Assembly: GCF_000153765.1 (NCBI RefSeq)
Contig: NZ_DS022295.1
Coordinates: 690,887 to 754,886, forward strand
DNA: 64,000 nucleotides
From: Mariprofundus ferrooxydans PV-1
Lineage (GTDB): Bacteria > Pseudomonadota > Zetaproteobacteria > Mariprofundales > Mariprofundaceae
Direction of reading: 5' to 3'
The first letter of the stretch is position 1. Every line of letters starts with the position of its first letter. Shown here piece by piece: positions 28,159-45,120 of this stretch. Under the pieces are notes generated by a model. The model was given only the letters and a program-made list of their open reading frames with translations, was not told where the DNA came from and ran no database searches. The position numbers were made by a program, and so were the translations under genes.

Positions 28159-28335
28159 TCAGATATCAAAAGCAGGGCTTTCGCCATGCAGTGTGACGAT
28201 AATCTCTCTTGCCCCGCCATGATTCCGGTGCTCTCCAAGCCAGATACCCTGCCAGGTACCGAGCGCCAGTCGGCCCATTTTAATCGGCACGGAGAGACTG
28301 TTGCCCAGCAGGCTGGCCTTGATGTGGGCCGGCAT
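28159..28335 (-). pseudogene. yjbQ: yjbQ (UPF0047), 3' fragment of the disrupted host gene
   Basis: The minus strand encodes [18 protein letters not shown] through [19 protein letters not shown], the C-terminal 57 residues of a YjbQ-family protein, ending at the TGA at 28161-28159. It has no start of its own. It joins in frame with the 5' fragment at 48129-48392 when the island is removed (88 + 57 residues). The conserved [12 protein letters not shown] motif is intact, so the gene was probably functional before insertion. Confidence 0.93.
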
Positions 28336-28365
28336 TTTCTTACACACCACTTTTATGATTCAAAT
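28336..28365. repeat. Left terminal inverted repeat of the element
   Basis: TTTCTTACA (28336-28344) followed by a TGATTCA block (about 28356-28362). The right end read on the minus strand has the same two blocks in the same order, with somewhat different spacing. This is the probable recombinase core site. Confidence 0.7.
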
Positions 28366-28370
28366 AGGAC
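28359..28370 (+). repeat. Subterminal direct repeat, left copy
   Basis: TTCAAATAGGAC, identical in sequence and orientation to 48046-48057 near the other end. It is a candidate accessory binding site for the recombination machinery. Confidence 0.6.
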
Positions 28371-28428
28371 ACACCTAGCACTGAATATTATACTACATCT
28401 CATCCATAATTCTTCGTATGCTTCGATG

Positions 28429-28848
28429 ATGTGGATACAAAAGACCATCACCCTGAAACCTCGCAGCCGTGGATTTCACTTAATCACCAGTGAAATCATT
28501 TCCAGCCTAGCCGAGCTAAAACAATTCAACATAGGCATTGCGCATCTCTTCATTCAGCACACCAGTGCAAGTTTAACGATCAATGAAAATGCTGACCCTT
28601 CAGTTCGCTCAGACATGGAGAATCATTTCAATCAAAGCGCCCCGGAGAACCAAAAGTTCTATACCCATACCTATGAAGGCCCAGATGACATTACGGCCCA
28701 CTTAAAAACCACAACCATTGGAAACAGCCTTACCATTCCTATCAAAAACGGCCAGCTTGGATTGGGTACCTGGCAAGGCATCTATCTGGGTGAACACAGA
28801 AACCATGGTGGATCAAGAAAACTAGTTGTAACGATGAATGGCGACTGA
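28429..28848 (+). CDS. YjbQ (UPF0047) protein carried by the element
   Basis: 139 residues, full family length, from the second of two adjacent ATGs. Conserved motifs are complete: RSRGFHLIT, FIQHTSASLTINENAD, DMENHFNQSAPEN and [20 protein letters not shown]0047 proteins have been reported to show weak thiamine-phosphate synthase activity; the physiological role is open. It is clearly diverged from the disrupted host gene, oriented oppositely, and lies less than 100 bases inside the left terminus. At the site matching the host insertion point it reads GATGACATTACGGCCCAC against the host GATGACATGCCGGCCCAC. It probably replaces the function lost on integration. Confidence 0.93.
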   Translation: MWIQKTITLKPRSRGFHLITSEIISSLAELKQFNIGIAHLFIQHTSASLTINENADPSVRSDMENHFNQSAPENQKFYTHTYEGPDDITAHLKTTTIGNSLTIPIKNGQLGLGTWQGIYLGEHRNHGGSRKLVVTMNGD

Positions 28849-28949
28849 GCTAATTACTTTCCAATTTACATCTACGATATTTCAAAGGGCAATCACTTCA
28901 TTTAAAACGTTTAAGTATCAAGACGGGAACCTATCCAGAATCCCTTTTA

Positions 28950-29531
28950 TTAAACCCTCATTATTCTTGATTTCTTGGATAAGTGACTGATTTTATTTTT
29001 CTTGCGAGGGCTGATAAAGAAGGAAAGTGTTGCTTTCTTATTTACCAAGTCAGCAAAATGCTTGATCAAATATTCATAGGCATTACCTAACATGTCTGGA
29101 TCAACAGACATGTTGCCTAATGTGTATTGAGAAAAGTGCTCTACAAGATCCACCAGAAGCCTGTCAGAGAGTTTGTTTTTATTACTCCACTGAGCATCAC
29201 CAAAGATACCATACAAGTATTCCTGGTTAGCTTGCTCGATTCCTCTCAATGCTTTTTCTATGGCTTGCCCTACATTGGTGGAAGTCTCTCTTACATCTCG
29301 CCAGTGGCAGCCTTCAGGGATTTCAAAACGATGGAACTCTGGGAGCAATGCATACTCTTTATCGCCATCGGACTCTTCCAGCGCGATGCGGAATTCTTCA
29401 TCGTAAACATCGGAAATACGGTTAAAGAGCAGCAGTGGAAAGATGTATACCTCGAAATCAGAAGCATCTACTGGGCCCTTCAGTATCCAGGCCGCTTTGG
29501 AAAGATACTGCTCTAATTGCGATAACGACAA
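28950..29531 (-). pseudogene. Truncated type I restriction-modification methylase (hsdM remnant)
   Basis: 193 codons from a TTG. The first ~173 match the N-terminal region of HsdM (QLEQYLSKAAWILKGPVDAS; FPLLLFNRISDVYDEE; DMLGNAYEYLIKHFADLVNK). Where HsdM continues with GEFYTPR the sequence changes to unrelated residues and stops, so the SAM-binding and NPPF catalytic motifs are absent. Complete HsdM is about 500 residues, and no hsdS or hsdR is present. It is a remnant left by an earlier cargo rearrangement. Confidence 0.88.
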
Positions 29532-29779
29532 TGCCTGCTAATTCATTCAGAAAAACCCTCCCCATACCCAATGTTGCAACAGATAGTCTATTACCGATGA
29601 GGAGAAACTTTAACTCCGTACAATGAGCTAATAATGGACTTAGTCTCATAAAATGCTTGACAGAAAAAATCATATGATACAGCTTAACATACTGATTCAT
29701 AAGGATTATATATTAGTCACCGACTATTCCACAATAACTTCCTTGATCAGTTTTAGCTAAATGGTCAGGGAGGTTTTTC

Positions 29780-31936
29780 ATGGGTCAGAGAAAGTTAAGA
29801 TGTCACTCATCGCGAAACAGAACCAGTTTCGCTGACATTTCTCTGCCGCTACTTGACCAATTACCAGATGACCTGGCCGACGAGTGGCTAAAGAATCTCG
29901 AACGATGGGCCAAAGGTTTTTCTACCCCAATGCAGGCATTTAAACTCCAACAGGTAACGACCTTTTGGGTAAATTGTCATATCAAATCGCCGCACCAGTA
30001 TCCACTCCCGCCTTTGCTTAAATCAGAAGCCCATGGGTTGATTAAAAATTTGCGGCGGAGTTGGTATGAACACGATATAATTGATCAAGGCGTACAGATG
30101 GATACTGCATCTACGGCTTGGTCTGTATTCCTCCGTTGCATTAAAATTATGTCCCGCGCGGGGCTATTCCCCGAACTCGATTTTTATAGCAAATCGTACC
30201 GTGCCTTTCACATGCAAAAAACCAGAGTATCTCGTGGCCTAGTAAATCCAAAGGTACTGAATGAATGTGCCTCGACGCTGCATGCCACAATGGACATCGA
30301 TAACGACAGTTATCATAGCTGTTTATTGGTACCACTATCGATTCATTTGTCGGATAACGAGTATCTTGAAAATTATGAAAACGAGCTCAGATCATCCATC
30401 AATTGTTTTTCTACGTGCGCAAATCAAGAATTTGAAACATTACAATTGCTAGAAAAAAAAGGTCAGCAGTTAATTGACTCAGTCGACTATGATTTAATTC
30501 AACGAATACTTAATAGTCGAAGGAGAATTGATGGCAGAGTTGATGGAACCAAAGGCGGCTATATTGACCCTTCAAATGGGAGAAACTGGTTTAACCCTAA
30601 AGGTGGCCACCCAGCAGTCTTTGCGAACAACCTCGCACTAGTAAAGTATGAGATGGGAGATCTTCCACAACCATACGTATTTAATGTAGAGAACAGAAAA
30701 TCAATAATTAATGGAAAAAATCATTGGCGTTTTCCAATTCAATTCGGCCGGGAAAAATTATTTTCTCACCTTGGTATATTGACGTGTCGAAACGCAATTC
30801 CTCTGATCGTGCTGCTTTTAATAGATCACCCGCGTTTGAACGTGGAATCTTTACTTAATGCCCGCTTGGTCGACAGCAAAAATCAAAAAATATTAATTGC
30901 CAATGCAGGAGAAAATGGAACGGACCTGCGTCTTACTGTTAACAAAATGCGAGCAAAAAGTCAAAAATCAAGCGTACTCACGCCGCGAGGAAAGGCTATT
31001 CTTGCCGCGGTTCTGAAATGGACAAATCCTGTGCGGAAGTCATTGATCCAACAAAATCGATTGGATGATGCTCGCTATTTATGGGTCGGATTCACACATA
31101 TCGTCGGTTACAAAGTTGGACGCTTCTCAATAAATCAAATGAGAGAAATGTTCCGCAAACCAAATGCGAAAATTGCTAATATAGAAAACAATATTGAAGC
31201 CTCAAATCCAGAAACGGTCCACTCCAGAACTGACTTTATCAGGTCTCATCCAAGCCTTTCACCTTGGGCAACGACAGCAAGGTTATCGAGCCTCAGAGTC
31301 TCTTCCGGAGTCTTATCCTGGTTTGAGTCCCAAGGTGACGTGGCTGTGACAGCCAGAGCATTTGGGCACAAGAATTTAAAAACAACAATCGACAATTATA
31401 TCCCCAAGCCGATACAGGAAGCCATGTATGAGCGTCAAATACGCCGCTGGCAAAATTTAATGATAAGCGCTGCTTGCGCCAAAAAACCTTATCTTTTAAC
31501 AGCAACAGACTTCTCTACACAAGCTCAACTACATGAATTCATTTGTGGCCTACTTCTCGATGCAAATCAAAGTTTCGCAGATGAGACTAGCTCAGCACTG
31601 CTCTCACGATTAAAAGAAATCATTAATCCATCAGTGCTAGAAAGCAAAGAGTTAGTAACTGAATGCAATTCAAAAACATTGCTAATAAATGACCCCCAAA
31701 AGCTTGCTGTGACCATGCTCTACGAAGAAGTCCTTCGTGAGTGTCCGGAGGCTGATCTTGATGCACCAGATCCATCTACAAAAACGACGCCTCGGATGTG
31801 GATTGATTTACTCAATGTATTGAGAGGACCATTACCCGACAGCATGCATGAGTTGAAGACTGCTGTACGCGCAGCTGAAATTATCGCGGGTGAAATTCGC
31901 GGTATCATTTCATTCCCTACGCTCACCGGAAGTTAA
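29780..31936 (+). CDS. Tyrosine-recombinase-like protein 1 of the element
   Basis: 718 residues. The C-terminal part has the recombinase pattern FGHKNLKTTIDNYI, giving His530 and Tyr540. Where HxxR is expected the sequence reads SSLRVSSG, so the first His of the motif appears lost. The N-terminal ~350 residues are an unrecognised, probably DNA-binding region. It is the first of a tightly packed co-directional series (3 bases before the next gene). The altered motif makes independent strand cleavage uncertain. It belongs with the large recombinases of non-conjugative integrative elements. Confidence 0.8.
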   Translation: MGQRKLRCHSSRNRTSFADISLPLLDQLPDDLADEWLKNLERWAKGFSTPMQAFKLQQVTTFWVNCHIKSPHQYPLPPLLKSEAHGLIKNLRRSWYEHDIIDQGVQMDTASTAWSVFLRCIKIMSRAGLFPELDFYSKSYRAFHMQKTRVSRGLVNPKVLNECASTLHATMDIDNDSYHSCLLVPLSIHLSDNEYLENYENELRSSINCFSTCANQEFETLQLLEKKGQQLIDSVDYDLIQRILNSRRRIDGRVDGTKGGYIDPSNGRNWFNPKGGHPAVFANNLALVKYEMGDLPQPYVFNVENRKSIINGKNHWRFPIQFGREKLFSHLGILTCRNAIPLIVLLLIDHPRLNVESLLNARLVDSKNQKILIANAGENGTDLRLTVNKMRAKSQKSSVLTPRGKAILAAVLKWTNPVRKSLIQQNRLDDARYLWVGFTHIVGYKVGRFSINQMREMFRKPNAKIANIENNIEASNPETVHSRTDFIRSHPSLSPWATTARLSSLRVSSGVLSWFESQGDVAVTARAFGHKNLKTTIDNYIPKPIQEAMYERQIRRWQNLMISAACAKKPYLLTATDFSTQAQLHEFICGLLLDANQSFADETSSALLSRLKEIINPSVLESKELVTECNSKTLLINDPQKLAVTMLYEEVLRECPEADLDAPDPSTKTTPRMWIDLLNVLRGPLPDSMHELKTAVRAAEIIAGEIRGIISFPTLTGS

Positions 31937-31939
31937 AAA

Positions 31940-34204
31940 ATGATTAGCCTTCCCAAAGACCTTGTTGAGTATCTAAATAACGATAACGATCAAATATCCC
32001 TAAATGTCAAACCAAGCTGGTTAATAAATAACTTCAAAGATCCTATTTGGTGGCTCAAAAACGCCAATCAAACGCGGCTTGTAAACGACAAGTGGCGTGG
32101 TGCGATTACCATTGACTGGGGAATGAAATTACCTCAAGGAAGACTGACTGACATGCGTTGGAGCAAGCTGCTCCTCCACTGTCAACTCATTGTGATTGCG
32201 CACATCGAATGCCCTCAAGCAGCAACTAGCAACTTAAAGGAAGTTGCAAAATTTCAGCGGACCATGCTTCGAATTTCAGAATACCTTATTTTTAACGCCC
32301 CTGATCAGGCTGAATTGCTTGGATTATCGGCATTATCCAATCATCGAGTCGAAATGCTCCTCGTAGACTCCCTTCATGGGGGGATTTGTGGAACAGGCAG
32401 TTGGTGTAAGCGATGGGATGCATTTATTCAAAGCATTTATTCTGACTTGAAAACAAGGGGGAAGGTAAAACACTGGGCATCAAATCTTCCATCAGACGAA
32501 AGGAGTAAAATCGACAACTGGAACAGGGAAATTATTTCTTCAGATCCTAAATGTCTTCCTGGCATGCCGACTCCTACCACCTTGAGCTCTGAAGAGCTCA
32601 TATTTGCTCGGCGCTGGCTGAAAATGGAAAACATGTTGGATAGAAATGGAACCGTACCACTACTTACAGTTGCCGACCGAATTGGTGTTGACAGAGTGCG
32701 CATAACAAAGTCCAAACATCTAATTTACCATCTTCGCCCGTTTGAACAGTGTATCGATTATCGGCATCAAGAGCAGGCCAGCAACCTCTGCCGTGAAAAA
32801 CTTAGCCATCGCCATAAGACCATTGCTCAGATAGCTACAACCCATTGTAGCTCAAGCGCACAACTAAACCTATATCAAGGGCTGAGTTACTTACGCCGCT
32901 ATGTACAGTATTGCGACAGCTTAAAAGATTCACAGTTACACGCATTAAATTTAGAGCGTATTCCCCCTGAGCTAAAGGGATGCGGGCCAAAGAATCGTAC
33001 TCCAACTCTACCTGTTGAAGTCGCACTATTCATTTATGATCATATGATAGATTGGGTTCTAAACTTAACTATTCCGTTGATTGACTATTACTTAGAAATT
33101 TTAGGCAAGGTCATCAAGCAACAAGGCAATGCATTACGAATTTCAAAAAACATGAGAGCCGGCTGCGATGCACTGGGCATAGATATGCCCGACTACTGGG
33201 AGAATGCATTCTCTGAGACCCCTCCTCCAGCAGAGCTTAAACGCTTAGGTATCTGGAGGGTTGGACCAATCTTTTATGAGGCTATTAATTCACCGAAAAA
33301 ATATCGCGATGCCGCAGGGAACAGTCTGTTGCCTAGCATCATACGCAATTCAGGGTTAACACTTATTGATGCCATGTTAATGAATTCAGCTGTCATTGTG
33401 GCTGTTACAGCTGCATTTTCAATACGACGTATCCAAGAACTCCTGAATTTGCATCCATCAGCGGTAAAAATAACTCAGGGAAGAAACTACCTCGACTTTA
33501 ACCTGGAAAAAGTAGGCATTGATGACACACGTTCACCGGCTTGTCGTCCAATACCCAGCTTTGTTGGAAAAGCACTTAACAAACAAAATCTATTATCACG
33601 AAAATTATCAGATGCCAATAAGTTACGAAAACATGACCCCCAAATAGATAAACTATTATTTATCAGGCCCTCAAATTCAGCAGGAACGCCCCTTTGCTAT
33701 ACTTTTTTCAGAAAATATCTTGACCTGTATTGCGATTATATTGAATCACCATGCGATAGAGAAGGTAGGCGGTGGTATTTGCAAAGTCACGAGCCCCGTC
33801 GTTTTGGCGCAATGAGCTTCTTCCATCTCTGTGGGATGGAGAACTCACTCCCAGCCCTCACTTGGTTCATGGGCCACGGGGATATTAGCCAAACCTGGCA
33901 TTATATTCGCGAAGAACTAACTGGCGCAGAGGTTACAAGTATCGAGGTTGCAATGGCAACTTCAGCCCTACTTAATCAACAAGTTCTTGGGTCGGTCAAG
34001 GGGGACAAAAAACTTAAAGATGTTCTAGCCAATCACTTTGGATCAGACAGGCTGGATCTCATTGATCCGAATGACTTGGATCAATATCTACAATATTTAC
34101 ACGAAGAAGGTGTTTATACAGTTACACCTCACACTATTAAAACAAGTAATGGAGAAAAGCATGTGATTGTCATCAATTACTCAAAGGAGGTTACCCATGC
34201 CTAA
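31940..34204 (+). CDS. Tyrosine-recombinase-like protein 2 of the element
   Basis: 754 residues. Catalytic signature visible near the C-terminus: FSIRRIQELLNLH (first Arg), HEPRR (His617, Arg620), MGHGDISQTWHYI (His646, Tyr655). The N-terminal half has no recognised domain. It overlaps the next gene's ATG by 8 bases and begins 3 bases after recombinase 1, so the set is one operon. The large size and arrangement recall the 'tfp' or large Int proteins described for strand-biased circularising elements of Vibrio; that comparison is from memory. Confidence 0.82.
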   Translation: MISLPKDLVEYLNNDNDQISLNVKPSWLINNFKDPIWWLKNANQTRLVNDKWRGAITIDWGMKLPQGRLTDMRWSKLLLHCQLIVIAHIECPQAATSNLKEVAKFQRTMLRISEYLIFNAPDQAELLGLSALSNHRVEMLLVDSLHGGICGTGSWCKRWDAFIQSIYSDLKTRGKVKHWASNLPSDERSKIDNWNREIISSDPKCLPGMPTPTTLSSEELIFARRWLKMENMLDRNGTVPLLTVADRIGVDRVRITKSKHLIYHLRPFEQCIDYRHQEQASNLCREKLSHRHKTIAQIATTHCSSSAQLNLYQGLSYLRRYVQYCDSLKDSQLHALNLERIPPELKGCGPKNRTPTLPVEVALFIYDHMIDWVLNLTIPLIDYYLEILGKVIKQQGNALRISKNMRAGCDALGIDMPDYWENAFSETPPPAELKRLGIWRVGPIFYEAINSPKKYRDAAGNSLLPSIIRNSGLTLIDAMLMNSAVIVAVTAAFSIRRIQELLNLHPSAVKITQGRNYLDFNLEKVGIDDTRSPACRPIPSFVGKALNKQNLLSRKLSDANKLRKHDPQIDKLLFIRPSNSAGTPLCYTFFRKYLDLYCDYIESPCDREGRRWYLQSHEPRRFGAMSFFHLCGMENSLPALTWFMGHGDISQTWHYIREELTGAEVTSIEVAMATSALLNQQVLGSVKGDKKLKDVLANHFGSDRLDLIDPNDLDQYLQYLHEEGVYTVTPHTIKTSNGEKHVIVINYSKEVTHA

Positions 34205-34733
34205 GCTAAAACCTGGTGAAATAGCCCCTGGTGTTGCTGCTATATCACAAAAGAAGCAGGCTTCTGTCCGCAACCTTTTAAAGGTCCTTCAGAAAGCATT
34301 GTCTACTCCTAAGGATACGCCACAGACGACACTAGATGCTATGAGCGGCTACAGGGCGCTATGCAAATGGAAAGATACTGATCTTGGTATCACGCCCATG
34401 TCAGAAGCTACTTTGCGTAAATACATAAAAAAATTCTATAAAGGTGGCCTGCCTAGCTTCGAAAAAGACCGCCAAAAAATCCTTATCAGATCTGTTTCAG
34501 CCATTGCAAAACCAGGCACCAGAGATGCGTATAAACAAACATGTAAAAACGTGCATGATGAAGATCAAGTTATTACCAATCACATTCTACAATTCTCCAA
34601 TCAATATCTGGACTTATTAGAAAAAACATCAGAGATAAGCCGCTCTCATAAGTTTCTACAGGATACTCTTAAAGCTCATACCTTAGCTTATCCAAGTGCA
34701 TTTCGTGGCCTTCGAGTCATCACCGATGAATAA
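34197..34733 (+). CDS. Small protein inside the recombinase operon, unknown
   Basis: 178 residues from the ATG at 34197, chosen because AAAGGAGG lies 6-7 bases upstream (an earlier ATG at 34167 lies further inside recombinase 2). Basic and helical (KKQASVRNLLKVLQKAL; ATLRKYIKKFYKGGLPSFEK), with no catalytic signature. It overlaps both neighbours by 8 bases, so it is probably a stoichiometric partner of the recombinases, such as a DNA-binding or directionality factor. Confidence 0.75.
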   Translation: MPKLKPGEIAPGVAAISQKKQASVRNLLKVLQKALSTPKDTPQTTLDAMSGYRALCKWKDTDLGITPMSEATLRKYIKKFYKGGLPSFEKDRQKILIRSVSAIAKPGTRDAYKQTCKNVHDEDQVITNHILQFSNQYLDLLEKTSEISRSHKFLQDTLKAHTLAYPSAFRGLRVITDE

Positions 34734-36153
34734 ACAAACAATAAAAAGACAATTGTGGAAAACAACTGACGAGCGTTGCAAGTTAACCCTGTATCTAGGA
34801 AGCAATGGCCCTGTCTACCGATCTGTTTCAGGCGTAAGAGTCCTGTTCTGGCCCAGTCTAAAACCTTGCTGGGAAGCCAATATGTATATTGTACACCGCC
34901 TACGCATGGGGAGATCAATTGGAACAGTAAGGAACGATGCTGCTCAAATTGCTTTACTATTAGTATTCTTATATCAACAAAATCTCTCTTTTGATGATAT
35001 TTCAAATGACGTGATGAATGCATTTAGTGATTACCTTGTTAATGAAGAAGACAGGGTCGTACCGCAGTCAAAACGTCGTGGTGGTCGGCAAACAAACAAA
35101 ATTCTACGGCGAACTTTAGACTACCTCCAGTGGTATCAAGCTCTGTTTCCGGTTCGCAATGTTCTCGTGGGGCCTTACGGGAGTGGAGCTCAAATTACCG
35201 TTGAAGAAAAGTCGGTTAAGGTTAATCGCAGAAATACCCATTATCTGCGCCATGAGTGCATGGTACCCAACGATATAGCAAGAGATGTTAAGCCTATGGC
35301 TAGAAATATTTTTACATCGCTATTGGATGCATGTGGTGAAATAGCAAAAAGCAGGTTCGTACAATCCCGGGCAAGAATAATGCTTAAGCTGCTGAGTGAC
35401 ACTGGTGCCCGTCGCGTAGAAATAGCCACAATTCTCGTTGAAGATGTTTTACGGACCAAAAAAAATGGTAGTTGCAAACTCCTACTAAAAACAGCTAAGC
35501 GTGGAGATTGGAAGGAACGTCTAGTGCCAATTCCAGAGGCCACGTTAGATGCTCTTTTAACATTTATCGAAATCGACCGACGCTTGCATCTTCGCAAACT
35601 TAAACACAAACAGAAAGAAATTACTGACAATACAGGACCATTACTTCTTACATTTAGAGGCAAACCATTGAGTACGCCGACTATTACCGTGGATATCTCC
35701 CGGTTACGTAAAATTGCAGGCATCTCTGAGCGAGCTACTGCACATATGTTACGCCACAGGTGGATCACCATCCAGGTTGTAGAGCGCCTAAAAGCATATA
35801 TTGGCAAGAAGTTACCCATAGATATTGAAAATACTATTCTTACAAAAGTCGCCTCCATGACGGGCCACAAACAGATCGAAAGCTTAAAACCATATATCTA
35901 TTTGGCGTTTGATGAAATGGGGGTTTGGGATACTTCTGATGCTGTTATCAATATGCGTGTTAATGCGGAGGCAGCGCATCGAGAAATCCAGGAAATCAGA
36001 CAATCTCATCCCGATGGTGAATCGTTAAAGAAGAATGACTTAAAACGAGTGGATAAGCTGCTAGAACAACTTTTGGAACATATAAAACCAGAATTTGTCG
36101 AGATAGCAAACAAACGGCTTTATGGTGAGGTAAGTTTGGATGCTTATATGTGA
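34726..36153 (+). CDS. Tyrosine recombinase 3 of the element
   Basis: 475 residues. All catalytic elements are seen: SDTGARRVEIATILVED (first Arg), a Lys-rich beta hairpin around LKTAKRGDWKERLVPIP, HMLRHRW (His340, Arg343), MTGHKQ, and PYIY with Tyr390 as likely nucleophile. The N-terminal region resembles a SAM-like core-binding domain. It is the most canonical of the three recombinases and probably the main strand-exchange enzyme. Its ATG overlaps the end of the preceding small gene. Confidence 0.88.
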   Translation: MNKQTIKRQLWKTTDERCKLTLYLGSNGPVYRSVSGVRVLFWPSLKPCWEANMYIVHRLRMGRSIGTVRNDAAQIALLLVFLYQQNLSFDDISNDVMNAFSDYLVNEEDRVVPQSKRRGGRQTNKILRRTLDYLQWYQALFPVRNVLVGPYGSGAQITVEEKSVKVNRRNTHYLRHECMVPNDIARDVKPMARNIFTSLLDACGEIAKSRFVQSRARIMLKLLSDTGARRVEIATILVEDVLRTKKNGSCKLLLKTAKRGDWKERLVPIPEATLDALLTFIEIDRRLHLRKLKHKQKEITDNTGPLLLTFRGKPLSTPTITVDISRLRKIAGISERATAHMLRHRWITIQVVERLKAYIGKKLPIDIENTILTKVASMTGHKQIESLKPYIYLAFDEMGVWDTSDAVINMRVNAEAAHREIQEIRQSHPDGESLKKNDLKRVDKLLEQLLEHIKPEFVEIANKRLYGEVSLDAYM

Positions 36154-36218
36154 CCAAAGCAGCATCAAAGGTACTAGCGTCCAAAATGCCAAGTAAAAAT
36201 TAATAAAAAGGAGTTGTT

Positions 36219-36422
36219 ATGAACACGCACACACTAAAATTCCCATCTGGCTGCTCTGTCAAACATTGCAAACAAGATGCTAAAGCCATTGTCAAAAACT
36301 CAAAACAATCCAATTCCCCCATACCGCTACATGCTGCGTTGGATATGGTTGCTTCGGATAATGGTATAAACCTGCCGTGGGAACGCGCCTTAAAACAATT
36401 AATGGCAGGAGATGTTAAATAA
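36219..36422 (+). CDS. Small conserved-looking accessory protein of the recombinase block
   Basis: 67 residues with a strong AAAAAGGAG site. Basic and Cys-containing (CSVKHCKQDAKAIVKN). It lies 65 bases after recombinase 3 on the same strand. Its position matches the small 'srap' gene that follows the recombinases in Vibrio strand-biased circularising elements; I cannot confirm homology without a search. Possibly an auxiliary recombination factor. Confidence 0.65.
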   Translation: MNTHTLKFPSGCSVKHCKQDAKAIVKNSKQSNSPIPLHAALDMVASDNGINLPWERALKQLMAGDVK

Positions 36423-36553
36423 CCTAAAACTGCTCAAACGCACCTACTTGGTCATGCATTAAACCTACGCATCAAGAAAGGCTTAATTGACATGGGCAGC
36501 ACTGACGATGCTGACGAAGGATTTTCCGTCTGCATGCTTAGGTGTAAATTACA

Positions 36554-36571
36554 GTGTAAATACATTTACAC
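36554..36571. promoter_or_regulatory. Perfect 18-bp palindrome, candidate operator
   Basis: GTGTAAATACATTTACAC, two 8-bp arms around AC. A direct half-site GGTGTAAAT lies just upstream (36540-36548). It sits about 25-45 bases before the degenerate integrase gene, the right place for a repressor site. Confidence 0.5.
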
Positions 36572-36595
36572 ATAAACTTACGCAAATGGAGATTG

Positions 36596-37126
36596 ATGAT
36601 GATGGCGAAGATGAAATTGATGAGTAAACAGGACCAAGCGCGGATGCTTCAGTATCTCGATAGCGAAGAGGAACACATATTGGCGAAGACTATATATTCG
36701 CTACTTCTGGATGGACTATGTGTAGGCGAGATAGTGCGGCTGGACTGTGAGAATCTGCGAAATATTGAAGATGGAAATTGTATTTTAGAATTGGCGAGCT
36801 CTGGCAGGTCGGCGAACCACTACACTGGGTATTTGCTGAGCAAAGTGTCAATTGAAGCCTTGCTCAAGCTGAAAGATGCAAAAAATGAGAAAGCCGGGCC
36901 GGTTTTTCGATCCGCAAATGGAAAAAGGATGACTGCTCATGAGCTAAGTCGAATTCTCACTAAGTCATTAGAAAAAGCTGGATCAGAAAGCTATTCCAGC
37001 GATTCAGTTCGAAAGACGGGGATAATGCGTCAGTGGCTTTCGATGGCCCCCAAGCCTAGTCAGTTGAGTCAAGATGTTAACATCGATATGGTGAACGCAT
37101 ATTTGAAAGAGATTGATCAAAAGTAA
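36596..37126 (+). CDS. Degenerate integrase-like protein
   Basis: About 176 residues; three consecutive ATGs follow GGAG, so the exact start is open. It resembles only the catalytic domain of tyrosine recombinases: YSLLLDGLCVGEIVRLDCENL corresponds to the TGLR-x2-E region but has Cys where the catalytic Arg should be, and DSVRKTGIMRQWL stands in for the HxxR helix. No GH...Y ending is visible. It is probably inactive, or a DNA-binding derivative. Confidence 0.6.
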   Translation: MMMAKMKLMSKQDQARMLQYLDSEEEHILAKTIYSLLLDGLCVGEIVRLDCENLRNIEDGNCILELASSGRSANHYTGYLLSKVSIEALLKLKDAKNEKAGPVFRSANGKRMTAHELSRILTKSLEKAGSESYSSDSVRKTGIMRQWLSMAPKPSQLSQDVNIDMVNAYLKEIDQK

Positions 37127-37278
37127 TCTATTTGCATATTCCAGTCAAAAGTCCCACCTCTTCTTGGCAATTTTAGCCAAGACAGTTTCAGCACCCCCCT
37201 CGGCCTAGGGCCAGCAACCGTTGCCAACACTCGTGGGTTACGATCAGGTTCGAGGTAGGTGCTTTTTTGCCTGTTCAG

Positions 37279-37330
37279 GGCGGACATCTGCCGATCGATC
37301 ACCACAGGAAACTCGCGGCCAAAGCAGACA
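37279..37330 (-). repeat. Palindromic island repeat, copy 1 (partial)
   Basis: Read on the minus strand it has TGTCTGC-TTTGGCCG, then CCTGTGGTGATCG and CGGCAG, and ends TGTCCGCC. It shares the core of the intergenic repeats found further right and lies between the degenerate integrase and the polymerase gene. Confidence 0.6.
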
Positions 37331-37357
37331 CTAACTTAATCAACCAGAGGCCTGAAT

Positions 37358-38599
37358 TCAATTTGCCTCAATCATTGGATACATAAACCGAACTCTCTGC
37401 CCTGATATATTTGAAACATGGGCGCCAGCGACCCTCAATGTACCTCTCCCATATTTCTTATTAATGTCATCCATGGTGGCAAAGATGGAGGCCTGTTTTG
37501 CATCAGTTTTCATAACACCAAACAAGTCAGGCATAGAATCTTCAGCGTTGGTAATGCTCTCAGCAATGATACCGCAAGCCCGATATAGTTCATTGGGCTG
37601 ATAAAGATCGGCCATCATGGCCTGAACAGAGCGACTGAGTCTGAAGTAGTTGTTTGTCGGATATTCGAAATCAGCCTGGGCTGACAGCGAGCTGAAGTCT
37701 TTCAATCTCAAGAAAATAGTAATGCGCTTGGTAAGTAGGCGCTTTGTCACAAGCTCTGTGGCTAGTCGAGAAGTATGGCGGATCAGATGAGAGATAATGG
37801 TTTTTCTGTTACCAGTAACCTCTCCCATGCTGGCGGTTCGGGCCATGCTTTTGGGAAGTTGAGCATGCAACTCCAGCCCTATGGCCATCGTGCCCTTCAT
37901 CTCATGCCAGAGATCGGTCCCGGCCTTTCCGAGTAGTTGCTTGATGACCTCAATGTCAGCATTAACAAAGTCCATCGGAGTATGAATGCTAAACTTGTTC
38001 AAGGTTGCGAGCCTGTTGCGTCCAATACCGCATACATCAGACAGTTTTACCCGTTTGAGAAAGAGTTGAATCATGCTGCTAGGCACAATGGTTACGCCAT
38101 TCGGTTTATTATATTCCGATGCGATTTTTGCCAGAATCCGTGTCACTGAAACTCCTACTGACACGGTAATTCCGACCTCACGATGCACGGCACGCCGAAT
38201 GTCATGGGCAATACCTTTGTAGTCCTTCTTCCAGAGCTGCCTGGTGCCGTTTAAATCAAGGAAGCCCTCATCAATGGAGTAGACCTCCATATCTGGGGAA
38301 TACCGCCTTAGAATCGAAAACATCTTCTCAGATATTAACCCGTAGAACCGAAAGTCTGCTGACAGATAGGTGGCATGGGGCATCAGCTTCTTCGCATCCC
38401 AGATAGGCATGCCTGTTTTAATCCCCGCTGCCTTCGCATCATAGGTTTTGGCTATCACGCATGCATCTTGGCTCGAAAGAATGCACACAGGCGATCCTAT
38501 GAGGTCTGGGCGGCGTACAAGCTCACATGATGCGAAGAAACAATCCGCATCAATATGGGCAATGGCATTTGGCCAATCATGGTCTGGGGGAGTCGTCAT
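37358..38599 (-). CDS. Y-family DNA polymerase (UmuC/DinB-like)
   Basis: 413 residues. The active-site acidic residues are in AHIDADCFFASCE and YSIDEGFLDL; VGVSVTRILAKIASEYNKPNG is the family-typical palm/thumb segment, followed by a helix-hairpin-helix region (VCGIGRNRLATLN) and a little-finger domain. It would perform translesion synthesis. No umuD partner is adjacent, so it may use a host UmuD' or act alone. A perfect palindrome 12 bases before the ATG suggests LexA-type control. Mobile elements often carry such error-prone polymerases. Confidence 0.92.
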   Translation of the reverse strand: MTTPPDHDWPNAIAHIDADCFFASCELVRRPDLIGSPVCILSSQDACVIAKTYDAKAAGIKTGMPIWDAKKLMPHATYLSADFRFYGLISEKMFSILRRYSPDMEVYSIDEGFLDLNGTRQLWKKDYKGIAHDIRRAVHREVGITVSVGVSVTRILAKIASEYNKPNGVTIVPSSMIQLFLKRVKLSDVCGIGRNRLATLNKFSIHTPMDFVNADIEVIKQLLGKAGTDLWHEMKGTMAIGLELHAQLPKSMARTASMGEVTGNRKTIISHLIRHTSRLATELVTKRLLTKRITIFLRLKDFSSLSAQADFEYPTNNYFRLSRSVQAMMADLYQPNELYRACGIIAESITNAEDSMPDLFGVMKTDAKQASIFATMDDINKKYGRGTLRVAGAHVSNISGQRVRFMYPMIEAN

Positions 38600-38610
38600 T
38601 TGCGAACTAT

Positions 38611-38628
38611 AGTGTACGTTCGTACACT
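38611..38628. promoter_or_regulatory. LexA-like operator/promoter of the Y-family polymerase
   Basis: Perfect palindrome AGTGTACGTTCGTACACT directly upstream of the polymerase ATG. On the minus strand it runs into ACTATAGT, a likely -10 region, so a bound repressor would block transcription. The GTAC-N4-GTAC core resembles the LexA2-type sites I recall from Pseudomonas rather than the CTGT-N8-ACAG box. Confidence 0.65.
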
Positions 38629-38779
38629 TATGAAGACTTGTGCTCAGGTCTTCGATGTTGGCGGACCGCCATCAAGGTTGCCGAGTCACGACGCATCAAC
38701 GAGCTGATCTCTGCTTTGGGGCGTCGGCACTCATTCTGCTATAATGCCCCTGAATCAAGAATCAAAGGGAGGGGCATCC

Positions 38780-39085
38780 GTGAAACATATTCTTTTACTA
38801 ATTGCCAGCTTACTGCTCCTGCCTATCACGGCCGAGTCAGCAGACAACTATTGCCTGGATGCCAAGACTAACTCAACTTGGGCAAAGATGCTGAGCGAAT
38901 CACCGCATGATGATTTGGTAGCTGAATTGTTTGCGCTTAGAATTGGCCTCTGTGAGCTTGTTAAAAGAAAAACCATCAGCCTTGATCGCGCGACTGCTAT
39001 TTTTGAAGAGGCCCGTGGACGTGCGGTGGTTCAGCGAAAAGCCGATGAATTGCGCCAGAAACACTTAAGGGGCGGTAATACATAA
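38780..39085 (+). CDS. Small exported protein preceding the nuclease
   Basis: 101 residues from a GTG with AGGGAGGGG upstream. The signal peptide core HILLLIASLLLLPITAESA is clear. The mature protein has two Cys (NYCLDAK and GLCELVKRK) and a helical, charged C-terminus. It is followed by a 55-residue ORF and the secreted nuclease in one transcription unit. No known family; possibly a partner or periplasmic inhibitor of the nuclease. Confidence 0.75.
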   Translation: MKHILLLIASLLLLPITAESADNYCLDAKTNSTWAKMLSESPHDDLVAELFALRIGLCELVKRKTISLDRATAIFEEARGRAVVQRKADELRQKHLRGGNT

Positions 39086-39097
39086 ACTGGAGTAGGA

Positions 39098-39265
39098 ATG
39101 TCTGAGCAAAGAGAAACAGTCACTTGGGAAGAGCTGAGCTGGTCAAATCATATCGAACAGGAGGCGCTTGTTCGGCTACTGATAAACAAAGGGATACTCT
39201 CGCAAGATGAGCTGCTGAATGAAGTCAGGCTCGTTCAACAAGCTTACGCAGGGCAGAAGTCATGA
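39098..39265 (+). CDS. 55-residue ORF in the nuclease operon
   Basis: ATG preceded by GGAGTAGGA. The peptide begins MSEQRETVTWEELSWSNH and continues with a helical HIEQEALVRLLINKGILS segment, ending QAYAGQKS. Acidic, with no signal peptide, so cytoplasmic. The stop overlaps the nuclease ATG by four bases, so the two are translationally coupled. The similar segment ALVRLLINKGILSQDEL is a helix-turn pattern seen in small phage and plasmid proteins. Function unknown. Confidence 0.7.
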   Translation: MSEQRETVTWEELSWSNHIEQEALVRLLINKGILSQDELLNEVRLVQQAYAGQKS

Positions 39266-39927
39266 GGCTGCCGGTGCTTCTTGGGCTCGGCCTAATCACC
39301 TTCATCAATATAGCATCAGCCACTGAGATCAGAGATTTTATCAACAGTCGGAATTGCGACCAAGTATTGGACAAGGGCTTCTATCAGATATGCTATGACT
39401 ACAGTGCCAAGGGTGCGCGGTATGTCGGCTACACGCTTGATGGAAGCAAAGTGAACGCTGGCGACATAAAGAAACGACCGCGCTTTTACCCTGACACGGC
39501 AATCCCTGCCAAATATCGAACCACATCTTCTGACTATACCAAGAATGAGTTTCACGCAGACCGTGGCCACTTGGCACCCGATGCCTCATTTGACTGGTCA
39601 CAAAAATCACTCCACTCTGTCTACTCGATGGCCAACATCATCCCACAATACTCCAAGATCAATCGCAAGACATGGGTGAAGGCTGAGAAGTATGAGCGGC
39701 TGGTTGCCACCAAGCTGGGGAAAGTAACAGTCATCAATGGTGTAATTTATGGTTTAAATCCTCAAAGAATGCGGAAGTCGGGCATTGCCTATCCTGAAGC
39801 TTTCTGGAAAATGCTTTATGATAACCACGGCTTTGAACGCTGCTTCTATTACAAGAATGACAGCCATGCAAAAATCAAAGGCGATAAGTTGCGTGATCAT
39901 GTTGTTGATTGCGGTGGGCTTAAGTGA
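39262..39927 (+). CDS. Secreted DNA/RNA non-specific endonuclease
   Basis: 221 residues. Signal peptide (LPVLLGLGLITFINIASA) and a beta-beta-alpha-metal nuclease domain: catalytic HADRGHLAPDASF (the DRGH motif) and the Mg-binding Asn in MANIIPQYSKINR. The four Cys could form disulfides, as expected for a periplasmic or secreted enzyme. Related nucleases occur on plasmids and integrative elements. Roles could include nutrient scavenging, degrading incoming DNA or competitor attack. Confidence 0.92.
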   Translation: MRLPVLLGLGLITFINIASATEIRDFINSRNCDQVLDKGFYQICYDYSAKGARYVGYTLDGSKVNAGDIKKRPRFYPDTAIPAKYRTTSSDYTKNEFHADRGHLAPDASFDWSQKSLHSVYSMANIIPQYSKINRKTWVKAEKYERLVATKLGKVTVINGVIYGLNPQRMRKSGIAYPEAFWKMLYDNHGFERCFYYKNDSHAKIKGDKLRDHVVDCGGLK

Positions 39928-39989
39928 CGGCGTCAGGATGAACGGCTTAAATGGTACTCAAGGCGCCTATTTCCTGATGTGAGGATAAG

Positions 39990-40235
39990 TCAATTTATGA
40001 TGGTGAAGCTTTGAGATTCAAAATAATGGACAGCCCCATGATAAGAGTTGTCTGTTAGAAGTTTTTCCAGTGTTTCAATGTCATCACAATACTTGGCTTC
40101 ACCACTCTCAGAAGTTAATAGTTTAATGTCATGGCTGTGGTCGAAAAAAAATACAACATAGCCATCCACACGAGGAAGAACATTAATCTCTTCATCCAAT
40201 TGAGTAGCCACTCTACAAAAGTCTTGGATAAGCAT
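39990..40235 (-). CDS. Small hypothetical protein
   Basis: 81 residues from the ATG at 40235 (AAAGGTGG seven bases upstream). Acidic, with alternating strands and helices (VDGYVVFFFDHSHDIKLLTS; DIETLEKLLTDNSYHG). No recognised family. It is convergent with the nuclease gene. First small gene of the repeat-separated array. Confidence 0.6.
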   Translation of the reverse strand: MLIQDFCRVATQLDEEINVLPRVDGYVVFFFDHSHDIKLLTSESGEAKYCDDIETLEKLLTDNSYHGAVHYFESQSFTIIN

Positions 40236-40370
40236 AAATCCACCTTTATCGAACAAGATATTGCTCCATCATAGCAGAATAGTTTCCGTTGCGGCCAAAA
40301 GGCTTCGCTATCAATACAACGGGAACTCTGGACTACCCCCGAAACAATAGACACTGATTAGTTCCTATTC

Positions 40371-40436
40371 GAATGGCTAATCCTGGCCGTGAGACGCCTG
40401 TCGCGATCTGCAGAAGTCGGCCAACAACGGTCATTC
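40371..40436 (+). repeat. Palindromic island repeat, copy 2
   Basis: GAATG...TGGCCG at one end and CGGCCA...CATTC at the other pair with each other. Centre: TGAGACGCCTGTCGCGATC. Plus orientation. Confidence 0.75.
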
Positions 40437-40492
40437 AGCAAATGTTTACGTAATAAGCTATCCTGACAGGAAACAGTTGGATGTGGGGGAAT

Positions 40493-40747
40493 ATGTTTAC
40501 TCATACGAAAAAAAAGAGTTTGCTTCAGGGCAATGAACTCACGAAACGCGCTGAAGAGTTGGGTGTTTCGCTAATTGAGCTATACGATGTACATGGCGTT
40601 CGCTCTGAACCAGAGTTGCAACGCCGCGTAATCGAAGCTGAGCGAGCAGAACGAGAATCACGATTATGGCTTATTGCAGTCATTTCTTCTGTTGCTTCAG
40701 TGTTTAGTGCTATAGCAGCTTGTATTGCGGTTGCCACCATGAAATAG
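40493..40747 (+). CDS. Small membrane-anchored protein, unknown
   Basis: About 84 residues from the ATG at 40493 (GGGGGAAT just before it); an ATG at 40481 with AGGAAACAG is equally possible. The N-terminal part is charged and coiled-coil-like (TKRAEELGVSLIELYDVHG; RRVIEAERAERESR). The C-terminus is one membrane helix (WLIAVISSVASVFSAIAACI). A tail-anchored topology is likely. Followed after 44 bases by another small TM protein. Confidence 0.65.
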   Translation: MFTHTKKKSLLQGNELTKRAEELGVSLIELYDVHGVRSEPELQRRVIEAERAERESRLWLIAVISSVASVFSAIAACIAVATMK

Positions 40748-40791
40748 CTTTTTTTCCCAATGGAAAATTATTTATTTGAACAGGAGGGTTT

Positions 40792-41082
40792 ATGTTTGAG
40801 GTTTTCATAATGCTATTATTTTGTGTTATTTCTCTATCCCATATTATGCTGGTGCGAAGAGTGAAACATTTAGAACGAGTTACTAGATGGGTCGAGACTC
40901 AAGCAAATAATAATGCAATCAACTTTAACGCAGTTTCTTTTGCGATTGATTCTCTTCCAAGAGAGCTTTTGACACCACCAGATGAAGCTATGAAAGCTGA
41001 TATTGAAGCAGCTAACATTCCACTGAAAGATAGAAACGAGCACCTTAAATCTTTAGGTGTCTCAAGCAATTACTGCACCTGA
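40792..41082 (+). CDS. Small membrane protein, unknown
   Basis: 96 residues with a good CAGGAGGG site. A single N-terminal TM segment (VFIMLLFCVISLSHIMLV) is followed by a basic turn and a soluble helical tail (PPDEAMKADIEAANIPLKD). No family recognised. It probably pairs with the tail-anchored protein just upstream. Confidence 0.65.
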   Translation: MFEVFIMLLFCVISLSHIMLVRRVKHLERVTRWVETQANNNAINFNAVSFAIDSLPRELLTPPDEAMKADIEAANIPLKDRNEHLKSLGVSSNYCT

Positions 41083-41166
41083 TTGTTTATGGTCAGTGAA
41101 TATTTTGTGCTGTTTTATATGCCCGGGTCAGGCATGAGTTATTGAGTTATTCATTCAAGCTAATGG

Positions 41167-41228
41167 ATGTCTGTGTTTGGCCGTGAGTCGCCTGTCGTGA
41201 TCGGCAGTAGTCGGCCAACAGCGGACAT
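41167..41228 (+). repeat. Palindromic island repeat, copy 3
   Basis: ATGTCTGTGTTTGGCCG pairs with CGGCCAACAGCGGACAT; the centre is TGAGTCGCCTGTCGTGATC. It is the best preserved copy. Plus orientation. Confidence 0.8.
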
Positions 41229-41300
41229 ACGATTTAGTGATTTACGCTAGCCGTAACAGGCGCCATGCTGCGAAGCGCATCGAAGAGTTTGACGTCATTG

Positions 41301-42266
41301 TTATGTCTTCGTGATCAGCCATGCTAAACCACTCTGCGGTAATGCCCACGAGCCATAGGTGAACTTAAGATACCCATCGTATTTGGTTATTTGACTAACC
41401 ACATCCTCGAGTACTAATGTTTTAAACTGCATGCCGCACCCACTTGGATACACAATTGTGATATCGAAAGACTTTGTGGGGTGTGCCATTTGCCAATGCT
41501 GGAATTGACCCAGTTTGGCAATGTACACTGCTTTAGTAATCACAACTAAACCATCGATATTACTGTATTCAGCAAGCGTGGCCTTTGCTCCTTTCGTTAG
41601 ATCAATTTCTGCGTCACCATCTGGGGGATATATTCGGATAACCTCGCCGGATTTTTCGTGGCTTTGCGGAAATTGGATAGAAATAGTCAAGGACTTAACT
41701 TCTTCGAATTCACCTTCATCAGGTTTCCACCCAACATGCTCTTGAATCTTTCCTCCAGAAGCCCTGCAAACGTATCTGACTTTGTCGGTAACAAGGAATG
41801 CATCATTACGCCCCTGCTCAAAGCTCATTAAGACCTCTGTTGATACATCTTCCCTGTATGGCTCAGATATATGCTTATGCAGATGAAGGTGAAAATAATT
41901 CAGAAAACTTCCTTCTTTATCTATTGTTTGATCTTTGAATTGTGCTTTTAGAACGTTTGTTTGAAGGTCTTTCAGTGTATCTTGATCTAAAGATTCCAAG
42001 TATTTTCTTTCCACCACGATTTCTTTAAGTCGTTCGCTAAAATACTCTCGCCAGTTCTTTGTATCGAGGGCAAAGCTAAACAAACCAAACCCAAACAGAG
42101 CAATTGAAATTGTGGTTAAAGCTGTAGCAAAGGCGCTTCTAAATGAACCTGGAGCGGGGTTCATTGATTCAGCAAAATATGCCGATGTAAGCACACCAAT
42201 AATCCCCACCATCAAAACTATTATGGTCAATAGGGTAATGGTTTGTTTTGTCTTGGACTCACTCAT
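41301..42266 (-). CDS. Two-TM membrane protein with C-terminal beta-rich domain, unknown
   Basis: About 321 residues from the ATG at 42266 (AAAGGAG roughly a dozen bases upstream); the frame extends 43 codons further. Two TM helices near the N-terminus (TITLLTIIVLMVGIIGVL and TALTTISIALFGFGLFSFAL) are followed by a charged helix and a soluble, strand-rich domain of about 200 residues (LTISIQFPQSHEKSGEVIRI; SFDITIVYPSGCGMQF). A two-TM anchor plus sensor-like domain is common among phage-defence effectors, but I recognise no specific family. Confidence 0.7.
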   Translation of the reverse strand: MSESKTKQTITLLTIIVLMVGIIGVLTSAYFAESMNPAPGSFRSAFATALTTISIALFGFGLFSFALDTKNWREYFSERLKEIVVERKYLESLDQDTLKDLQTNVLKAQFKDQTIDKEGSFLNYFHLHLHKHISEPYREDVSTEVLMSFEQGRNDAFLVTDKVRYVCRASGGKIQEHVGWKPDEGEFEEVKSLTISIQFPQSHEKSGEVIRIYPPDGDAEIDLTKGAKATLAEYSNIDGLVVITKAVYIAKLGQFQHWQMAHPTKSFDITIVYPSGCGMQFKTLVLEDVVSQITKYDGYLKFTYGSWALPQSGLAWLITKT

Positions 42267-42440
42267 CTGCTGATGGAACTCCTTTTTTCGGCATAACCTG
42301 GTAATACGTGCACTAGTTTTTCCATGTATTACCCTCCTATATACGCCCTTGTTTTCCATGTTATTGCATATTAAAGGCAAAACAATGTACTGCATCAGAT
42401 TTTCCTGAGTAGATCCCGATTTTCACAGAAAGGTTGCTGA

Positions 42441-42500
42441 CTGTCCATTTGTGGCCGTGAGTCGCTTGTCGTGATCGGCAAATAGCAGCCGTTCAGGGTT
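42441..42500 (+). repeat. Palindromic island repeat, copy 4
   Basis: CTGTCCATTTGTGGCCG, then the same TGAGTCGCTTGTCGTGATC centre as copy 3, ending GCAGCCGTTCAGGG. The right arm is degenerate. Plus orientation. Confidence 0.7.
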
Positions 42501-42537
42501 TTGGCTATGATGTTCCATCTGAGGGGCGGAAAGACTT

Positions 42538-43296
42538 ATGAATAATTTTCCTTTTGAAAAAAGCTCATTGCCAGTTTTAGGTGTCGACGAACAAGCTGAG
42601 AAAGTATACGGGATTGGAACCTGTACCCTTGCTCACCTCGACGACGGAAGAAATTTTTTAATAAATTGTGCACATACGATTAATACTTGGGGAGAGAGTC
42701 CAATTTATATAGCTCTACCTATAGGTAGAAGTATTGAATTGCCATTTGCTCTAAAGTCAAAATCTAAAACTGTTGATAAATTAGATATTGCTGTAACTCC
42801 ATTGGATGGAGAATTTGGCGCACATTTTTATGATAATGATCTAACTTCCAATTCTCTAATAGATAAGCCCATACCTAACAAATATAAAAACCTACCTAAA
42901 AGAGTGGTGTTCTTTGGATATCCAGCATCAAGGGCTAACATTGATCTAAAGGCAAAGAGGATAAATTCAAAATCAATAGCCATTGTTGGCATTGAAGTAG
43001 AAAGTGTTTCAGAGAAAACATTAGAAACTTACGATATTGATTTGGCAACTCATCTGTTAGCAAGCTTTTCAATAGGAAAAATGAAGGATCAAAATAATAA
43101 AATGAAGAGAGCACCTAAACCGAATGGCATCAGTGGGGGGGCTGTGTATATTGCTTATGTTGAAGAAGGTAAGGGCATAGACTCTTTAGTGGCAATCGAT
43201 TTCGTTGGAATTGGTACCGAATACCTTCAAAACATTTCAAGACTAAAGGCTACCAGGAAAGCAGCAATTGCAGATTTTATTAAAAGTAGTTTCTAA
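42538..43296 (+). CDS. Trypsin-like serine protease
   Basis: 252 residues. A chymotrypsin-fold triad is visible: His46 in LINCAHTI, Asp83 in KLDIAVTPLD, Ser199 in NGISGGAVYIA. No signal peptide, so probably cytoplasmic, unlike housekeeping DegP-type proteases, and no PDZ domain. Trypsin-like domains of this kind occur as effectors in several anti-phage systems. It lies alone between two island repeats. Confidence 0.82.
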   Translation: MNNFPFEKSSLPVLGVDEQAEKVYGIGTCTLAHLDDGRNFLINCAHTINTWGESPIYIALPIGRSIELPFALKSKSKTVDKLDIAVTPLDGEFGAHFYDNDLTSNSLIDKPIPNKYKNLPKRVVFFGYPASRANIDLKAKRINSKSIAIVGIEVESVSEKTLETYDIDLATHLLASFSIGKMKDQNNKMKRAPKPNGISGGAVYIAYVEEGKGIDSLVAIDFVGIGTEYLQNISRLKATRKAAIADFIKSSF

Positions 43297-43351
43297 AATA
43301 GTTCAAAGACAAAATATTCATGCTAGATGCAGTAGTTTGCCTCTGGTTGCT

Positions 43352-43413
43352 GAGTGTCTTTTGGTCGATTTGAGCCGGTCGCGACAGGCGACTCACGGCC
43401 ATAAGCAGACATT
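43352..43413 (-). repeat. Palindromic island repeat, copy 5
   Basis: Minus orientation: read on the minus strand it runs ATGTCTGCTTATGGCCG, TGAGTCGCCTGTCGCGACC and ends CGACCAAAAGACACTC. The core equals copies 2 to 4 inverted. Confidence 0.75.
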
Positions 43414-43499
43414 TGTGCTCACTATGAATATGCTATAAGCTAAAATGAAAGTGCGCTTATTCGACTAGCGTGAAACTCGGATATTAATTGGAGAAGCCA

Positions 43500-43877
43500 A
43501 TGGCATGTTTAGTAGTCTGGGAGGCGGAAGGTGCTTATAGAGAATTCACTGGCGTTGTTAGTGTACATGAAATCTTAAAATCTAATCTTGAGTTATACGC
43601 TGATCCTCGATTTAAGAATGCTTCATATCTTATTGATAACTTCTCAGAAATATCAGGCTCTACGGTAGAGCCCTCTGATTTAGGGGCTTTAGAAGTAACA
43701 GATGAAATCATATCGCAGGAATATCACGATATTAAAATCGCTTTTATAGTTGCCCAGGAACCACGTGAAATTGATATGGCAAAGAGTTATTGTGATCAAA
43801 TGAAAGACAAGGGTTTTAAGTATGAGTATTTTCTGACCGTTGATAATGCTCGAAAGTGGGCTACCAACAAACTCTAG
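43500..43877 (+). CDS. SpoIIAA-like (STAS-related fold) protein
   Basis: 125 residues from the ATG at 43500 (GGAGAAG upstream; a TTG lies at 43488). The sequence follows the SpoIIAA-like family: an N-terminal VVWEAEGAYREFTGVVSVHEI, the middle NASYLIDNFSEISG, then IKIAFIVAQEP and a final strand-helix. The family is small, cytoplasmic and of unknown function. It is bracketed by island repeats on both sides. Confidence 0.75.
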   Translation: MACLVVWEAEGAYREFTGVVSVHEILKSNLELYADPRFKNASYLIDNFSEISGSTVEPSDLGALEVTDEIISQEYHDIKIAFIVAQEPREIDMAKSYCDQMKDKGFKYEYFLTVDNARKWATNKL

Positions 43878-43886
43878 TTAATTTAT

Positions 43887-43942
43887 GAATGGCCGCTTAT
43901 TGCCCTTCGTGACAGGCTGGGTGCGGCCATGAACGGCCATTC
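43887..43942 (-). repeat. Palindromic island repeat, copy 6
   Basis: GAATGGCCG and CGGCCATTC form the outer arms; the centre contains CCTGTCACGA on the minus strand. A shorter, diverged copy ten bases after the SpoIIAA-like stop. Confidence 0.65.
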
Positions 43943-43973
43943 TTTAATAGGGATCAATGCGCGAAACGAGTCC

Positions 43974-44005
43974 TGACCCCTATCTCACGTGACCCCTATC
44001 TCTTG
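43974..44005 (+). repeat. 16-bp tandem duplication
   Basis: TGACCCCTATCTCACG is followed at once by TGACCCCTATCTCTTG. Two units in the gap after copy 6; no function evident. Confidence 0.6.
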
Positions 44006-44071
44006 TGAATTTATTTCGCGCTTAGGTGTCCAGAATCAGGGCGAGGGCGAAAGTGCCTATCGAACTATTTG

Positions 44072-44293: not shown

Positions 44294-44345
44294 GCCAGAC
44301 CCTCATCCCTATATTTTGCTAAAAGCTATACTTTAGTATCAAAAC

Positions 44346-45063: not shown

Positions 45064-45120
45064 AGGAGACAGAATATGACCCTATAAGTGTCTTTACAAG
45101 AAGATATCGGGTAGCCACCT

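Follow-up and report, generated by a model that had tools for sequence, protein, structure and literature searches.

A conserved four-gene tyrosine-recombinase module in a 19.8-kb island that splits yjbQ in Mariprofundus ferrooxydans PV-1

The DNA analysed here (a stretch of 64,000 nucleotides of the Mariprofundus ferrooxydans PV-1 contig NZ_DS022295.1, called the window throughout) carries a compact group of four genes, three of which encode relatives of tyrosine recombinases. The first gene (R1) is separated from the second (R2) by 3 bp, and the next two junctions (R2/S and S/R3) are overlaps of 8 bp each. A preliminary description of this region had given the places and sizes of these reading frames and their 3-base gap and 8-base overlaps, and all were found as it had them. 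The recombinase-like genes and their small partner are:

29780-31936, + strand: R1 (718 aa), catalytically degenerate protein with a likely tyrosine-recombinase fold (R506, H530 and Y540 kept; best solved fold XerA 5hxy)
31940-34204, + strand: R2 (754 aa), large tyrosine recombinase with the full R-K-HxxR-H-Y set; IntB counterpart (96.5%)
34197-34733, + strand: S (178 aa), small all-helical protein with a long C-terminal helix (AlphaFold2 pLDDT 92)
34726-36153, + strand: R3 (475 aa), ordinary tyrosine recombinase with the full R-K-HxxR-H-Y set; IntA counterpart (98.6%)
36593-37126, + strand: degenerate tyrosine-recombinase catalytic-domain fragment, 177 aa (Pfam E 4.7e-5, below cut-off)

The tight operon consists of R1, R2, S and R3. 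A 67-aa gene that follows it (36219-36422) had been counted with the operon, but neither this gene nor the 177-aa fragment, which had not been listed before, found a match in any of the homologous loci fetched. The 67-aa gene lies outside the conserved core and does not correspond to srap; the fragment, absent from every relative, was ruled out as a fourth partner.

Among the operon proteins the Pfam Phage_integrase model matches R3 alone (E 3.6e-12). R1, R2 and S have no Pfam match, and nothing usable for R1 and S came from sequence searches of Pfam, NCBIfam and the PDB. The R...HxxR...H...Y signatures previously reported for R2 and R3 are complete and invariant across the family alignments, as R497, K524, H617xxR620, H646 and Y655 in R2 (37 sequences) and R229, K258, H340xxR343, H381 and Y390 in R3 (22 sequences). 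In R1 the only invariant positions are R506, G529 and Y540, with H530 kept in at least 90%. The loss of the first His of HxxR in this protein had been recognised correctly, but the first Arg is gone as well, and what is left of the active site is the second Arg, the second His and the Tyr. The three proteins are all recombinase-like, as had been proposed, and only two of them look catalytically complete. The AlphaFold2 model of R1 (pLDDT 74) has XerA (5hxy) as its best solved structure, with a probability of 0.98 and an E value of 0.02, which is of modest significance; a recombinase fold is likely rather than proven for this protein. The fold search with the all-helical model of S gave no significant match to a known fold.

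The operon is part of an island that splits the host gene yjbQ, leaving its C-terminal part at the left and its N-terminal part at the right. GC content is about 0.40-0.48 inside the island and about 0.55 outside; along the sequence it falls to about 0.42 between 28 and 48 kb. The features of the island, other than the operon, are:

28159-28334, - strand: host yjbQ, C-terminal fragment (continuity with the gene of congener G051)
28335-48124, no strand: integrated element, 19,790 bp from inverted repeat to inverted repeat (empty site in G051, terminal repeats, GC profile)
28426-28848, + strand: intact yjbQ copy within the element (Pfam UPF0047, E 2.3e-39)
28950-29531, - strand: truncated hsdM, N-terminal part only (Pfam HsdM_N, E 2e-18)
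37358-38599, - strand: cargo UmuC-like Y-family polymerase (Pfam IMS, E 2.5e-44)
39262-39927, + strand: cargo DNA/RNA non-specific endonuclease (Pfam PF01223, E 2.3e-39)
45304-47673, - strand: cargo AAA_13 ATPase, candidate defence family PDC-S06 (Pfam PF13166, E 4.9e-183; PADLOC, E 3.3e-290)
48131-48413, - strand: host yjbQ, N-terminal fragment (Pfam UPF0047, E 1.4e-19)

The congener G051, with a DNA identity of only about 70-75%, has the matching neighbourhood with an unbroken yjbQ and provides the empty site, its two matches abutting at window positions 28335 and 48129. The intact yjbQ inside the island is a possible replacement for the broken target. In another congener (G047, locus L090) yjbQ has the opposite orientation and is nearer to the island's copy than to the split host gene. 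A second island suspected at yjbQ in G057 was rejected, as it holds ordinary genes without integrase relatives. The operon starts 1.4 kb in from the left end, next to the truncated hsdM, and for this reason the island may have been rearranged.

We have collected relatives by alignment of R2 alone, in one scan of 85,000 species genomes that gave 80 more loci, and profiles of R1, R2, S and R3 were run against every ORF of 86 fetched loci and of the window. The order R1-R2-S-R3 on a single strand appeared in 80 of these 87 loci (71 with four clean ORFs and 9 with a split or extra piece); seven were incomplete and none had any other gene order. Since the loci had been picked by R2 alone, the co-occurrence of R1, S and R3 is an independent finding, and the shared order is far beyond chance. 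The window proteins share only about 15-36% identity with their relatives, which weighs against the main reading given below. The hosts are mainly gamma- and betaproteobacteria, with one alphaproteobacterium (Kordiimonas) and metagenome-assembled genomes of Geobacteraceae and Sericytochromatia; distant relatives with the same neighbour genes are carried by plasmids of Pseudomonas, Providencia and Acinetobacter. The family includes minimal elements of about 6.5 kb. The R2 profile was also run against 391 good genomes drawn evenly from the phylum and gave four strong and two weak matches. One of the strong matches is the window's own genome, and the other three (L111-L113) have all four genes in the order R1-R2-S-R3. 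The weak ones are L110, which adjoins ssb and has an SE-like order (see below), and L109. The set in L109 (7436-10966) is more distant and similarly ordered. Its first gene encodes a protein of 1176 aa that contains INRxHYAK-like tandem repeats, and two small genes sit between the large and the ordinary recombinase. No R2 relatives were found among 78 genomes of the host's own order or in the phage records searched, and E. coli genomes gave one partial match only (17%).

Sister insertions, which the preliminary description had proposed to look for, are present in these relatives. Near-identical modules occur in different hosts and different target genes, with sharp boundaries and with the module at the element ends. 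Conserved genes are truncated in the left flanks, as read by eye, and tblastn confirmed this for YggL, for HrpB (near codon 125) and for ComM (at codon 303, but at 344 in the P. aeruginosa group). In comM, hrpB, yggL and umuD the split falls at fixed codons. Both halves of comM are present in L069 (9.2 kb) and L073 (13.7 kb), and both halves of umuD in the umuD group, where the cut falls at the UmuD self-cleavage motif GFPSPA. Less certain targets, with flanks read by eye, are cinA, terD, topB, mscS, parA, rarA, ligA, cca and an endonuclease gene. In some hrpB elements an intact copy of the target lies past R3.

The umuD group shows some features of its own. In L005 and L023-L026 the insertion at the UmuD motif creates a new ORF (MGRMSSYGNPAQDYVE...) that begins 15 bp past the R3 stop and would in effect give a ready-made UmuD'-like protein following the operon of the element. 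LexA-like boxes (e.g. CTGTATGTATATACAG) are found upstream of R1 (L005:1581, L015:6731, L023:6581 and L025:6581), and L023 and L025 have another in front of their split umuD; the boxes upstream of R1 suggest SOS control of the recombination operon in this group. Inside the elements of L005, L023 and L025, to the left of R1, there is a class A beta-lactamase gene, 99-100% identical between Proteus and Providencia plasmids.

The ends of the window element are:

28329-28334, + strand: left 6-bp spacer CCGGCA, host-derived (continuous with host yjbQ and G051)
28335-28344, + strand: left terminal inverted repeat TTTTCTTACA (end analysis)
48115-48124, - strand: right terminal inverted repeat, TGTAAGAAAA on the + strand (end analysis)
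48125-48130, + strand: right 6-bp spacer ACTTCA, not host-derived (comparison with G051)

The joint predicted from them, TGTAAGAAAA-ACTTCA-TTTTCTTACA, is a perfect 10-bp inverted repeat around 6 bp; a repeat of at least 10 was seen in 1 of 4000 random point pairs within the island. At the left end a second box, TGATTCA, begins 21 bases past the spacer, and the left ends of the relatives have a TRTCA-like box 21-22 bases inside theirs. Of 76 loci, 50 have TRTCAA upstream of R1, where about 12 would be expected. The comM and umuD elements also have a right-end box at 31, whereas the right end in the window has no box at +31. A 12-mer, TTCAAATAGGAC, lies near both island ends in the same orientation (window 28358 and 48043). 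The spacers of the window element have a polarity (host at the left, foreign at the right) that is reversed with respect to the hrpB, comM and umuD relatives. In these the 6-mer beside R1 is foreign and variable, or constant across hosts in the umuD group, and the distal 6-mer is host-like in the comM and umuD elements, those for which the far ends were read. The reversal may reflect either the rearrangement of the island or a polarity that differs between subgroups. Inversion of the operon was considered as its cause, but the box at the left end, with its spacing of 21, argues against this.

Several known element classes resemble this one. The core of the strand-biased circularising elements (SE) has the order intA-tfp-intB-srap, and homologs of Tfp and Srap in synteny are the published rule for detecting it (PMC10214605). 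SE share with the window family two intact tyrosine recombinases (one ordinary, one large), a recombinase-fold protein without a full active site, a small helical protein, inverted-repeat ends, 6-bp spacers (one host, one foreign), target specificity and low GC (PMC10214605), and at the window the split target is retained, with inverted repeats in the joint and a 6-bp spacer, the three features by which SE ends are recognised (PMC10214605). To this extent, the kinds of parts and ends, the likeness to the SE core proposed in the preliminary description is real; it does not extend to the sequences of R1 and S. In the profile comparison that it had called for, made with four SE-type sets, R3 matched IntA with 98.6% probability (and a TnpA-like protein with 97.1%) and R2 matched IntB with 96.5%, but R1-Tfp and S-Srap reached only 1.8% each, with only four SE-type sequences to compare. 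R1 and S are thus not recognised, in this thin comparison, as Tfp and Srap homologs in synteny. The order is also different, being rotated to tfp-like, intB-like, small and intA-like in 80 of the 87 loci, and the 178-aa protein, taken before as an addition to the SE core, instead fills the small-partner position of the rotated four-part set. The window family, moreover, extends to beta- and alphaproteobacteria and beyond the Pseudomonadota. SE have been reported only from Gammaproteobacteria; a four-gene set in SE order is found in Paucimonas (Burkholderiales, L099). Judged by its sequence the window element is not an SE, since no relation of R1 to Tfp or of S to Srap could be detected; a remote common descent may nevertheless exist, the SE side of the comparison being thin (four sets).

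The GInt islands have an operon ginA-ginB-ginC-ginD, in which the Arg-lacking recombinase is third and the small gene last (PMC5385486; Tn6571 family, PMC10121019). An operon of three recombinase-like genes plus a small one, a cargo island, short imperfect att repeats and protein-gene targets are common to both. By the published description of GInt, the window family is set apart by its small gene in third place and its ordinary recombinase in the last. Neither the R1 nor the S profile matched the GInt candidate beside ssb (L110), and a search for Phage_integrase pairs as a chromosomal GInt reference returned only Tn554-like pairs and one SE-order locus (L099).

That the element is a strict-sense SE or GInt with reshuffled genes is, on balance, unlikely. 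The same four kinds of part, the 6-bp spacers, the inverted-repeat ends and the homology to IntA and IntB would fit this explanation. Set against them are R1 and S, which are not detectable relatives of Tfp and Srap, and a gene order constant over about 80 loci. Furthermore, in the R3/IntA tree, which has long branches, the R1-R2-S-R3 loci form one clade (88/95) apart from the SE-type IntA (97/95), and the profiles of R1 and S find no match in the loci with SE-like order (L096, L097, L099 and L110). These differences agree with the earlier suggestion of a distinct group.

Membership in Tn554-like or RIT elements, also raised before, was checked and neither fits. The Tn554 family (Tn554, Tn552-II; PMC12486829) likewise combines an ordinary recombinase, a large one and a small protein, and brings in flanking bases; Tn552-II has a 7-bp spacer and carries a target-gene-like gene, comparable to the yjbQ copy of the island (PMC12486829). 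It has, however, three genes only (tnpA-tnpB-tnpC) against four in the window, with no counterpart of R1. Only the homology between R3 and the TnpA-like protein is clear (97.1%); R2 is weakly similar to the TnpB-like protein and R1 has no TnpB-like match. The RIT archetype is similar in its three adjacent recombinase genes, but these encode proteins of 315-410 aa, all catalytic, without a small partner (PMC3414803, PMC10214605). The window proteins (718, 754 and 475 aa) exceed such "recombinase in trio" sets in size, as had been noted, and R1 is degenerate. We have found no description of the order R1-R2-S-R3 in the literature searched, which covers few subscription journals.

A slightly weaker explanation still, and an improbable one, is that the operon is cargo or a remnant in an island moved by another system. 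The operon is not flush with the element end, the spacer polarity is odd and a separate recombinase fragment lies at 36593-37126, all of which would agree with it. Yet a complete recombinase, transposase or relaxase besides those of the operon was not found in the island (28335-48124), its left end fits the pattern of the R1-R2-S-R3 relatives, and in these the module sits at the element ends. That the genes serve a resident function (DNA inversion or defence) is very improbable, despite the candidate defence gene in the island, given near-identical modules in different hosts and targets with sharp boundaries and the empty yjbQ site in G051.

We therefore regard R1-R2-S-R3 as probably the recombination module of a 19.8-kb site-specific integrative element in yjbQ, belonging to a widespread family defined by its fixed order; what the data show directly is the conserved module with its catalytic residues, the ends of the element, its empty site and the choice of targets in relatives. 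It is a real and conserved variant of the multi-recombinase integrative elements, and probably undescribed. With less assurance, we lean towards a widespread and so far undescribed family of tyrosine-recombinase elements with four proteins, which would be a sister of SE, GInt and Tn554. Its operon is rotated, starting with the degenerate recombinase and ending with the ordinary one, and it would prefer conserved coding motifs of housekeeping genes and often carry or re-start a replacement of the target.

The best reading is that the element works like SE, GInt and Tn554. R2 and R3, the two catalytic tyrosine recombinases, would do the cutting, and R1, with probably the same fold and an incomplete active site, and the helical S could be structural or DNA-binding partners. 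The two ends, imperfect inverted repeats, would be brought into contact by these proteins, and cuts at the edges of the 6-bp spacer would release a circle keeping one 6-bp flank, which could then recombine with the conserved coding motif of a target gene. The window copy itself is presumably mobile, and it may show strand bias or copy-out behaviour.

The family bears on the question why some mobile elements need three recombinase-like proteins and a small partner. A third independent lineage in which these four kinds of part recur in another order shows what is essential, and the family supplies many testable ends, targets and minimal elements. It also accounts for islands in comM, hrpB, yggL and umuD, labelled in databases only as integrases or hypothetical proteins, some of which bear resistance or defence genes.
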